Assembly: GCA_026415155.1 (NCBI GenBank)
Contig: JAOAHQ010000070.1
Coordinates: 1 to 33,961, forward strand
Direction: 5' to 3'
DNA from: Rhodocyclaceae bacterium
GTDB taxonomy: Bacteria; Pseudomonadota; Gammaproteobacteria; Burkholderiales; Rhodocyclaceae
DNA length: 33,961 nt
The translations under genes were made by a program, and so were the position numbers. Positions 3,299 through 6,738 of the stretch are shown piece after piece; positions within the stretch are counted from its first letter, which is position 1, and each line of letters begins with the position of its first letter. Under the pieces are notes generated by a model. That model had not been told where the DNA came from and did no database searches. It was given only the letters and a program-made list of their open reading frames with translations.

Positions 3299-4170
3299 TG
3301 CCTTGCTCCCAGGATGCGCACCTCGCGCTTGAGCGCCACGCCGAACCGTTCCTTCACCTCGGCCTCTATGCGGCCGATTAAGCTTTCTATCGCGGCGGCG
3401 GTGGCCCTGCCCGCGGGATTAACGATGAAATTCGCATGCTTTTCAGACACGCGCGCGCCATCGATTTCGATCCCCTTCAAGCCGGCCGCCTCGATGAGCC
3501 GCGCGGCATAGTCACCCGGCGGATTCCTGAACACGGAACCGGCGTTGGGCAACTGCAGGGGCTGGCGGGCGATGCGCTTTTCGAGCAAGGCGCGGATCCT
3601 CGCGCGCGCTTTTTCCGCATCGCCTTGTTCAAAGCGCAGCCAGGCGGCGACGAAGAGTTCATCGCAGGCGCGTTTGAGGCCCACATGGCGGTAGCCGATC
3701 GCAAAATCGGCACTCGTGCGCTCGATCAAATCGCCGCGCCGGTTGAGCATGACGACCCGTTCGACGTGATGCCAGATCTCGTCGCCATAGCAGCCTGCGT
3801 TCATCGCCAGCGCCCCGCCCACGGTGCCCGGGATGCCGGCGAGGAATTCGGCGCCGGAAAGATTGTGGTTGGCGGCAAAGCGCGCGAGCTTCGGCGTCGC
3901 GACCCCGGCCTCGGCGTAGATCGTGCCGTCGGCTTCCATGCGCAACGCGTTTAGCGCGCCATGGGTGAAGATCGCCGTGCCATCGAAGCCGCCGTCGCGG
4001 ATCAGGAGGTTCGAGCCCAGGCCGACGACGAGCAGCGGTTCGTCGTGGCGCAGGCTGGCGAGGAAGGCAGCGAGATCGTCAAGATCGCGCGGAAAGCAGG
4101 CGCGCGCCACTGGCCCGCCGGCGCGCCAGCTCACATGCTTGGCCATCGGTTCGTCGTAGCGGATCTCCAT
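3295..4170 (-). CDS. murB: UDP-N-acetylenolpyruvoylglucosamine reductase MurB
   Basis: MurB is an FAD enzyme that reduces the enolpyruvyl group to make UDP-MurNAc using NADPH. From the ATG at 4168-4170 it is 291 aa. The FAD-binding parts are GLGSNLLIRDGG, FLAGIPGTVGGALAMNAGCYG and the GYRHVGLK region. The proton-donor serine lies in LPNAGSVFRNP, and HANFIVN near the C-terminus is also conserved. The short length and missing tyrosine loop suggest the type II form. The reading frame stays open upstream, but that part is a shadow of murC. The ATG shares its A with the TGA of murC (TGATG), so the two are coupled. Confidence 0.95.
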   Translation of the reverse strand: MEIRYDEPMAKHVSWRAGGPVARACFPRDLDDLAAFLASLRHDEPLLVVGLGSNLLIRDGGFDGTAIFTHGALNALRMEADGTIYAEAGVATPKLARFAANHNLSGAEFLAGIPGTVGGALAMNAGCYGDEIWHHVERVVMLNRRGDLIERTSADFAIGYRHVGLKRACDELFVAAWLRFEQGDAEKARARIRALLEKRIARQPLQLPNAGSVFRNPPGDYAARLIEAAGLKGIEIDGARVSEKHANFIVNPAGRATAAAIESLIGRIEAEVKERFGVALKREVRILGARH

Positions 4171-5558
4171 CAGGCCCCCGCCAGTTTGGCCGGCACCGTG
4201 CCGATCGAGCCGGCGCCGAGCGTGATCACGACATCGCCGTCGCGGGCGAGATCGAGGATGGCCTGCGGCAAGGCGGCGATGTCTTCGACGAAGACGGGTT
4301 CCACCTTGCCCGCGACGCGCAGCGCGCGCGCCAGCGTCCTGCCGTCGGCGGCGACGATCGGGGCTTCGCCCGCCGCATAGACCTCGGTGAGCAAGACGGC
4401 ATCGGCTTTTCCGAGCACCTTGACAAAATCTTCGAAGCAGTCGCGCGTGCGCGTGTAGCGATGCGGCTGAAAGGCCACGACGATGCGCCGGCCCGGATAG
4501 GCGCCGCGCGCGGCAGCAAGGGTGGCCGCCATCTCGGCCGGATGATGGCCATAGTCGTCGATGAGCGTAAAGCGGCCGCCGCCGGGCAGCGCGATTTCGC
4601 CATAGCGCTGGAAACGCCGCGCCACGCCCGTGAATTCGGCGAGCGCCTTCTGGATCGCCGCATCGCTCGCGCCGACTTCCGTGGCTACCGCGATCGCGGC
4701 GAGCGCGTTCCTCACATTGTGCAGGCCCGGCAGGTTGAGGGTGACCGGAAAACGCGTCACGGCGCCATTGGTACGCACGCATTCGAAATGCATGCGCCCG
4801 CCCTCGGCGCGGATCTCTTCGGCGCGCACGTTGAGTCCCTCGCCCAGGCCATAGGTGACCACCTGTTTGGCGATCTGCGGCAGGATCTCGCGCACCTGCG
4901 GATCGTCGGCGCACATCACGGCGACGCCATAGAACGGCAGGCGATGCACGAAGTCCACGAAGGCCTGCTTGAGGCGGCCGAAATCGTGGCCGTAGGTATC
5001 CATGTGATCGGCATCGATGTTGGTGACGACGGCGATCACGGGCGAGAGAAAGAGGAAGGAGGCATCCGATTCATCGGCCTCGGCGACGAGGTAGTCGCCC
5101 TGGCCGAGCCGCGCATTCGCGCCGGCCGAGTTAAGCCGCCCGCCGATGACGAAGGTCGGATCGAGCCCCGCTTCGGCGAGGCAGCTCGCGACGAGGCTGG
5201 TCGTCGTCGTCTTGCCGTGCGTGCCAGCGATCGCGATGCCTTGCTTTAAGCGCATCAGCTCGGCGAGCATCTGTGCGCGCGGCACCACCGGCACGTGGCG
5301 CGCGCGCGCCGCGACGATTTCGGGATTGTCGGCCTGGACGGCGCTCGAGACGACCACCGCATCGGCGCCCGCGACGTGCTCGGCCGCATGGCCGATCATC
5401 ACGCGCACGCCAAGGCTGGCAAGCCGGCGCGTCGCCGCCGATTCGGCGAGATCCGAGCCGCTCACTTCAAAGCCCTGGTTGGCGAGCACCTCGGCGATGC
5501 CCGACATGCCCGATCCGCCAATCCCGACGAAGTGAATGCGCTTGACTTTATGTTTCAT
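4170..5558 (-). CDS. murC: UDP-N-acetylmuramate--L-alanine ligase MurC
   Basis: MurC adds L-Ala to UDP-MurNAc with ATP, the first step of the stem peptide. The 462 aa start [10 protein letters not shown], followed by the nucleotide-fold motif [15 protein letters not shown], the P-loop GTHGKTTTT at residues 112-120, EADESDASF, and the C-terminal [11 protein letters not shown] and FQPHRYTRT motifs. I chose the ATG at 5556-5558 because GGGAGG lies 5 nt upstream and the protein then has normal length. A second, diverged copy of the first 35 nt of the gene lies 122 bp upstream, exactly at the murG stop codon, but in another frame relative to this gene (see the mini-ORF and hairpin entries). The downstream junction with murB is a 1-nt overlap. 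Confidence 0.95.
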
Positions 5559-5582
5559 CGGGCCTCCCGTCGGGATTGGCGG
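5515..5582 (-). promoter_or_regulatory. 14-bp perfect stem enclosing the murC ribosome binding site and start
   Basis: In the mRNA sense, the arm CCGCCAATCCCGAC (5582-5569) pairs without mismatch with GTCGGGATTGGCGG (5528-5515). The 40-nt loop between them holds GGGAGG and the murC ATG plus nine codons. The downstream arm encodes the conserved V-G-I-G-G of MurC, so the upstream arm is an inverted copy of coding sequence. The arms are seen directly. An effect on murC translation is inference. Confidence 0.6.
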
Positions 5583-5680
5583 TGCGCGGCCAGCGGCCGC
5601 GCCGCCGCCCCTAGCAGGCGCGAACGCGACTGCGTGCGTTCGCTGCCGACGAAATGGATGCGCTTGACTTTGTGTTTCAT
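5555..5680 (-). CDS. 41-codon mini-ORF: decayed or duplicated start of murC
   Basis: This frame begins [12 protein letters not shown], identical to the first 12 residues of MurC, then leaves the MurC sequence for an arginine/alanine-rich tail ending REAR. Its ATG overlaps the murG TGA as ATGA, and its own TGA overlaps the true murC ATG as ATGA. A ribosome leaving murG could therefore pass through it into murC. Over the first 35 nt it differs from murC at three positions, all silent third-codon changes. I do not propose a protein function. It may be a coupling leader peptide or simply what remains after a rearrangement at the murG/murC junction. Confidence 0.4.
5584..5602 (-). repeat. Perfect 8-bp hairpin in the murG-murC spacer
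   Basis: On the plus strand GCGCGGCC (5584-5591) and GGCCGCGC (5595-5602) flank the 3-nt loop AGC. No T-tract follows in the transcription direction, so it is not a standard terminator. It lies directly upstream of the stem that encloses the murC start. Confidence 0.6.
5620..5643 (-). repeat. Perfect 8-bp hairpin at the end of the duplicated murC start
   Basis: On the plus strand GCGAACGC (5620-5627) and GCGTTCGC (5636-5643) flank an 8-nt loop. It starts right where the upstream murC-like copy stops resembling murC. That makes it the first of three consecutive perfect inverted repeats in this spacer. Confidence 0.6.
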
Positions 5681-6738
5681 CGTGCGATTTCCATACAGGT
5701 GCGCGCGACGGCCTCGGCCGCATCGGGCCGCGCCAGCTTTCTTGCCTGCTCGGCCATTTCGGCAAGCTGCGCGCGCGAGAGATTGCCCACGAGCGCGAGC
5801 CGCTCGGGGCTCAACTCCTCTTGCGGCAAGAGCATTGCCGCGCCGGCATGCACGAGAAAGCGCGCATTGGCCGTCTGGTGGTCATCGACCGCATGCGGAT
5901 AGGGCACGAGGATGCTCGCCACACCCGCGGCAGCGAGCTCGGCGATCGTCAAGGCGCCGGCGCGGCAGAGCACGACGTCGGCCCAGGCATAGGCGCCCGC
6001 CATGTCGTCGATGAAGGCCACGCAATGCGCCTTCACGCCCGCCGCCGCGTAGGCCGCCTGCAAGGCGGAAAGATGCTTCTCGCCCGACTGATGCACGACT
6101 TCGGGCCGCGCGTTTTCCGGCAAGAGCGCAATCGCCTTGGGTACAGTCTCGTTGAGCACCGCCGCGCCGAGGCTGCCGCCGATCACCAACAGGCGCAGCC
6201 GCCCGCTGCGCTCGCCATAGCGCAGACTCGGCGCTGGCAGGACGGCGATTGCGTCGCGCACCGGATTGCCGACCCAGCGCCCCTCTTTGAGCACGTCGGG
6301 AAAGCCCGTCAGCACCCGGTCGGCGACATGGGCCAGCACGCGATTGGCAAGGCCGGCGATTGCGTTTTGCTCGTGCAGCACGAGCGGAATGCCCAACAGC
6401 GCCGCCATCATGCCGCCGGGGAAGCTGATGAAGCCGCCCAAGCCCAGCACCACGTCGGGCCGGAGGCGCCTGAAATGGGCGAGCGCCTGAGCGAAACCGC
6501 GCAGCAAGTTGAAGGGCAGCAAGAGCTTGCGCACGAGCCCCTTGCCGCGCAGCGCGGAAAAACGCACCCAGGCCATCTCATAGCCGCGCTCGGGCACGAG
6601 GCGCGCTTCCATCCCGTCGGGATTGCCCATCCAGACGACCCGCCAGCCATGCCGCGTGAGCCAATCGGCCACGGCAAGCCCCGGCATGATGTGCCCGCCG
6701 GTGCCGCCTGCCATGATGACGATGGTTTTTTTCGTCAT
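5677..6738 (-). CDS. murG: Lipid II synthase MurG (GlcNAc transferase)
   Basis: MurG transfers GlcNAc from UDP-GlcNAc to lipid I on the cytoplasmic face of the membrane, making lipid II. From the ATG at 6736-6738 it is 353 aa. It begins [20 protein letters not shown] with the glycine-rich donor-side loop, then has [28 protein letters not shown], the second glycine loop [12 protein letters not shown], and the UDP-GlcNAc-binding region [24 protein letters not shown] followed by DDHQTANA. The ATG overlaps the ftsW stop (ATGA). Its own TGA overlaps the mini-ORF start. The open frame upstream of 6738 belongs to the shadow of ftsW. Confidence 0.96.

Follow-up and report, generated by a model that had tools for sequence, protein, structure and literature searches.

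A recurrent murC-specific leader unit at the murG-murC junction of betaproteobacteria and its possible role as a translational relay

The 122 bp at the murG-murC junction of a Rhodocyclaceae bacterium (GenBank assembly GCA_026415155.1, contig JAOAHQ010000070.1, positions 1 to 33,961; this whole stretch of 33,961 nucleotides is called the window) are best explained as one unit of a recurrent betaproteobacterial murG-murC leader element. Sequence comparison indicates that this murC-specific leader unit is real and wider in occurrence than the original prediction had it. As read from the aligned loci, a unit opens with a copy of the murC initiation region, mostly on the murG stop codon, which appears to be the position where murC was coupled ancestrally, and ends in a stop codon that overlaps or adjoins the start of the next unit or of murC itself. 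The unit is probably a translated leader cistron, that is, a translational relay, which expands and is lost by recombination between start copies. The gene that follows it encodes MurC, the ligase that joins the first amino acid to the precursor of peptidoglycan.

The elements of the window locus are as follows, in window positions.

5677..6738, minus strand: murG, with its ATG at 6738 and its TGA (5679-5677) overlapping the start of the copy
5646..5680, minus strand: start copy, corresponding to the first 35 nt of murC with 3 silent differences (sequence comparison)
5555..5680, minus strand: leader ORF of 41 codons, whose stop TGA overlaps the murC ATG (ORF and open-frame tests)
5620..5643, minus strand: hairpin 1, GCGAACGC/GCGTTCGC, perfect 8 bp, arms 5620-5627 and 5636-5643
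5584..5602, minus strand: hairpin 2, GCGCGGCC/GGCCGCGC, perfect 8 bp, arms 5584-5591 and 5595-5602
5568..5582, minus strand: anti-murC arm, perfectly complementary to murC nt 30-44
5563..5568, minus strand: Shine-Dalgarno-like GGGAGG ahead of murC, within the predicted anti-murC duplex
5515..5529, minus strand: murC target of the anti-murC arm, nt 30-44
4170..5558, minus strand: murC, 462 codons

The start of murC is indeed present twice on the minus strand, as originally predicted: positions 5680-5646 and 5558-5524, at a spacing of 122, are identical at 32 of 35 positions, and all three differences are silent (3 silent and 0 replacement over codons 2-11). The copy ATG (5680-5678) overlaps the murG TGA (5679-5677) as ATGA, and the 41-codon frame (5680-5555) closes with a TGA over the murC ATG (5558-5556), again as ATGA. 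A chance repeat is ruled out by the probability of a match of at least 32 of 35 at one place, which is 4.5e-15 under the local base composition, and murC alone among the 102 ORFs of at least 120 aa in a mechanical ORF list of the window has a copy of its start 60-170 nt upstream. Two structural features were absent from the earlier account: the spacer holds a pair of perfect 8-bp hairpins, and murC nt 30-44 is matched by an inverted copy that is perfect over 15 nt, with arms at 5568-5582 and 5515-5529. The predicted fold of the strand amounts to -85 kcal/mol (z = -2.75; equalled in 2 of 200 shuffles), and the predicted duplex between the unit tail and murC, at -42.2 kcal/mol, includes the Shine-Dalgarno-like GGGAGG. 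An origin of the unit from a gene on contig 67 was also considered and rejected, the 35-nt match there being read as lying within rpsM and taken as chance.

Units between murG and murC were read in 31 loci, 36 units in total, each combining a murC-start copy, GC-rich hairpins and an arm complementary to early murC. These loci are betaproteobacterial as far as they are named, the exception being an uncultured bacterium (L152). Among 30 fetched murC loci of relatives, the junctions of 24 were examined (the motif missed 6), and besides the window the element was found in L021 (= G035) and L023 (= G024), both from other genera. It was absent from the 12 same-genus loci examined; yet a second contig of the same-genus genome G004 ends inside a unit of this kind, which speaks against an assembly error as the source of the duplication, an explanation also made unlikely by homologous cores in other genera. 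The G004 case shows that contigs of draft assemblies can break off within a unit, so that counts from draft genomes may be too low. G004 has two different murG ends, L006 (G004:C145) and L163 (G004:C33), one of them breaking within the element, and mixed strains or contamination are possible in this genome.

The duplication pattern occurs in 5 of 395 family genomes, from 5 genera and always at murC, and in 4 of 399 genomes of the order, while a scan of named genomes returned at least 116 stretches and, after filtering, at least 18 murC-start duplications, 6 of which (L054, L061, L065, L080, L117, L127) belong to genomes also counted under G handles; the filter passed over L129, which appears to be G608. 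A covariance model (R1) built on the core alone, leaving out the copy and covering only the window's type of unit, matched 8 of 395 family genomes, each once and at murC (E <= 0.001), adding G187, G289 and G305 to the first five; presence of the element is thus sporadic. At E <= 1, covering 29 genomes, R1 gave two weak matches away from murC, in G004:C36 (0.12) and G532:C7 (0.46). A looser profile (R2) led to units in G046, G052, G590, G707, G714 and G766; together with G000, G461, G532, G578 and G608, at least 11 of 399 order genomes carry units, a count that leaves aside doubled matches in G429, G514 and G549. With just 2 pairs, R2 comes close to a pure sequence profile and so gives scores to ordinary murC starts too; of the 264 of 399 order genomes that "match", the doubled or high-scoring cases were examined. 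Homologous or like-built units, some of them tandem, occur in several genera and families, and such conservation of the spacer in other genera is what the original prediction had named as refuting it; a single displacement of murC by a 122-bp insertion is not supported.

The reading frame that opens at the copy start (ATG; GTG in G046) runs to murC across the whole insert in all 31 loci, and its stop, at -5 to +11 nt from the murC start, overlaps or adjoins the downstream start in each, as is expected of a leader cistron. Among the 36 unit stops, 17 form ATGA (+4), 15 lie at +11, two at -1 and one at -5; the remaining unit, the first in G608, is in frame with the next unit and not with murC. 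None of the 31 last units has a length that is a multiple of 3, which would put it in frame with murC. Dinucleotide-shuffled, frame-randomised controls that kept the murC start relayed in 37.5% of cases on average, versus 31 of 31 loci observed, an excess with P = 2.9e-6 when one locus is taken from each of 12 groups defined by likeness; pooled P values are overstated because the loci are related. The stop positions at +4 and +11 are largely set by the murC start sequence once a frame is open and out of phase, and openness and phase are the informative facts about the leader frame.

The position of the copy supports the original suggestion that it marks the first murC start: by heuristic frame calling, 24 of 30 first units have a copy start that overlaps the murG stop, and 19 of 32 element-free loci have their murC start in this overlapping position. 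Six element-free loci (L013, L016, L025, L193, L194, L198) have a long unrelated spacer without a start copy at the murG-murC junction, with the murG stop 85-111 nt ahead of murC. In all six, an ATG on or beside the murG stop opens a frame that reaches to within -7 to +11 nt of murC (chance product 5.6e-4), so that this junction seems to take inserts of any sequence as open relays. Reinitiation has been reported to drop by 80-100% at a spacing of 38 nt in three E. coli gene pairs (PMC10666635), and an untranslated insert of the unit's size should therefore uncouple murG from murC.

Selection on the copy as coding sequence, which the original prediction had proposed from the silent-only differences, is supported by the wider set, although exchange between diverged murC alleles could also yield such a pattern. 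Over codons 5-11 of 34 units, the copy differs from its own murC by 54 silent and 23 replacement changes, whereas a neutral-copy model (kappa 2, omega 0.1 for murC) expects about 64% replacements; the bias has P of about 1e-9 with related loci pooled. Constraint was scored on codons 5-11 and not on codons 2-11 because the search pattern fixes codons 1-4 and biases the longer test. Among 11 units found without the duplication pattern, constraint is weaker (17.5 silent vs 10.5 replacement, P = 0.01), and replacement changes do exist in copies, as in G035, G153 and L062. The earlier interpretation is supported in the original-start position and the coding signature, and not in the single insertion.

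Coding constraint on the copy also fits a quite different scheme, translational bypassing or splicing, in which the copy would encode the true N-terminus and the core would be skipped as far as murC codon 12, either by the ribosome or in RNA processing. Bypassing is known from phage T4 gene 60, where the take-off codon is followed by a stop, and from mitochondrial byp elements. Near-identical sequences at the possible take-off and landing sites and a hairpin directly after the copy agree with such a scheme, but murC has kept a start codon, the frames run on open with no stop after the take-off site, and an open frame of out-of-phase length up to the murC start would be unneeded. We regard bypassing as highly improbable.

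Copies resemble the murC that they precede. In 28 units, mean identity is 30.0/33 to the unit's own murC and 25.5/33 to others, and copy and murC have oddities in common, such as KVN in G590, GTG starts in G046 and A7/I11 in L140. In 12 of the 28 units the own murC fits better than every foreign one, and in 11 a single foreign murC is as good; the remaining five (G154, G035, L055, L064 and unit 2 of L074) have two or more equal or better foreign fits, which is compatible with allele exchange. Such fits, and the sporadic recurrence of the element at the same site in several families, favour a mobile element that targets the murC start and carries its own, or an exchange of murC starts between lineages, with the two starts differing silently because both were once real murC starts. 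Recombination with a related allele, as envisaged in the original prediction, could have occurred in the window, whose copy is matched at 32/33 by the murC of L116 and at 30/33 by its own murC; the 12 copies without an equal foreign murC, and the 11 with just one, speak against a mobile element or exchange. The core is matched only once per positive genome, at murC, and copy and murC share lineage-specific silent changes in G461, which likewise disagree with mobility or exchange, and we consider either improbable.

Two tandem units are present in L068, L074 and G608 and three in G578. A survey of one genus (13 genomes searched, 9 of 10 murC loci parsed) found units in four genomes, short scars of the start copy in G666 and G781, and neither in G782, G785 and G504. 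The silent changes in G461, common to the copy and its murC and not found in G578, point to homogenisation of the copy with its own murC. Recombination between start copies may build tandem arrays, homogenise copies with their own murC, and delete units, leaving scars. In L121, murC starts with MKHKVKHIHFVGQVHFVGIGG, and a piece of a leader unit is seemingly fused into the N-terminus of the enzyme.

Hairpin 1 is 100% paired across 10 type-B units, with both sides changed at 4 of 7 pairs, a compensatory pattern. Pairing of the unit tail with murC nt 25-54, a stretch chosen by the analyst, exceeds that of shuffled tails at P <= 0.05 for 24 of the 29 last units and does not for the other 5, and tails pair better with their own murC than with those of others (Wilcoxon 5e-4). 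Predicted accessibility of the Shine-Dalgarno region is alike in 31 loci with and 22 loci without units (P = 0.12), and blocking of murC initiation is therefore proposed for the window's type and not as a general property; for murC nt 28-50, the same comparison gave P = 0.03.

Another account takes the units to be neutral debris of tandem duplication: a hairpin-rich insert would re-duplicate time and again along with the murC start, would be tolerated for its start codon and open frame, and would itself be functionless. The sporadic occurrence (8 of 395), scars and varying array size inside one genus, and the tolerance of unrelated open inserts at the same junction are all as such debris would have them. 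The silent bias in the copies, the compensatory changes in the hairpin and the pairing of the tail with its own murC are not, and we judge neutral debris unlikely, if the most credible of the rival accounts.

Known classes of element were compared with the unit. Integron attC sites have the core-site motifs GTTRRRY and RYYYAAC, which were seen together in 0 of 6 units checked, and this identity was rejected. A known Rfam RNA family was rejected likewise, a scan of 6 loci giving only PtaRNA1 and CcsR1 below the gathering score, and the unit had no match in plasmid or phage records. Copies in large numbers per genome, a trait of REP sequences and MITEs, were not found with R1, which matched once per positive genome in 8 of 395. 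To our knowledge the murC leader has no inducer, unlike erm-type attenuators. The unit is short, palindromic and intergenic like MITEs and REP repeats (PMC10969869, PMC2817692), but it occurs only at murC, at one locus per genome, and bears the start of its target gene. Leader-peptide attenuators such as the erm leaders (PMC5118997) likewise place a short ORF before a gene and a hairpin near the ribosome-binding site; the murC leader differs in starting with the N-terminus of the downstream gene and in lying inside an operon. A further related system is termination-reinitiation coupling at ATGA overlaps (PMC10666635, PMC6728339): here, too, 4-nt stop/start overlaps link the leader with murG on one side and murC on the other, but the leader is an additional cistron, in some loci a tandem one, that begins with a copy of the start of the gene after it. 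A literature search, mostly at abstract level, returned nothing on a murC leader.

A weaker parallel comes from a dispersed repeat in the family, to which the motif CTTGGGGCGGC, common to some type-A units, belongs. This repeat has up to 118 pattern matches per genome and is present in 25 of 61 genomes. Of 78 loci considered for a relay test, 30 co-directional operon junctions remained once 18 unclear cases, 26 with opposing genes, 3 at an edge and 1 reclassified locus had been set aside; 13 of the 30 copies relay (7 of 21 sense, 6 of 9 antisense). Because the shuffled control expects 9.6, a figure in which 4 of the 30 segments enter as zero for want of sufficient length to be shuffled, relay by these repeats is suggested and not established; with ATG at both ends, 11 were observed and 6.6 expected. 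The general claim of relaying repeats at operon junctions is weak. By eye, L225, L227, L232 and L233, all outside the 30 tested, also relay, and the frame in L229, which failed the test, relays through two units. L232 (G000:C6:16700-17600) and L233 (G000:C30:47700-48500) are repeats of the window's own genome that bridge stop to start by eye. In a same-genus genome, L231 (G002:C1:2106000-2106900) has a repeat on the ftsW-murG ATGA junction, a site that is empty in the window (bare ATGA at 6738). Tandem units of 113-122 nt in L225, L227 and L229 come near the murC unit lengths. The terminal arms of the repeat vary by locus and yet remain complementary (7.6/9 vs 4.7 when re-paired, 59 arm pairs). 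Membership of the murC units in this repeat was rejected, as an nhmmer profile of 82 copies scored no unit above shuffled controls; without homology in the profile, the likeness is one of behaviour and descent is not shown. At some operon junctions copies of the repeat, like the murC units, keep a frame open between two ATGA overlaps, and the repeat also has complementary arms particular to each locus and forms tandem units; it differs in its many copies per genome and in a relay count not clearly above the shuffled control.

Under the favoured reading, ribosomes ending murG would reinitiate on the copy, translate a leader of 28-53 codons, then terminate on the murC start and reinitiate there. 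On the way they would melt the hairpins as well as the duplex with murC, under which the Shine-Dalgarno sequence would also lie in the window's type. Such a relay would keep murC coupled to murG over an insert that would otherwise uncouple them, and the unit may lower or tune the amount of MurC made per MurG. A bolder and doubtful extension, put forward tentatively, would be that the junction accepts inserts only as translated relays, one betaproteobacterial kind of which, with its copy of the murC start and its antisense arm to it, may have turned into a translational rheostat dedicated to this gene and able to expand in tandem, and that short structured repeats sitting open and relaying on ATGA overlaps may form a general class of operon insert. 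If the leader reading is true, a start-copying structured leader, variable in number and tracking the murC of its host, would be a new form of expression control in the dcw operon, and it would illustrate a way for a tightly coupled operon to take up inserts and remain coupled.
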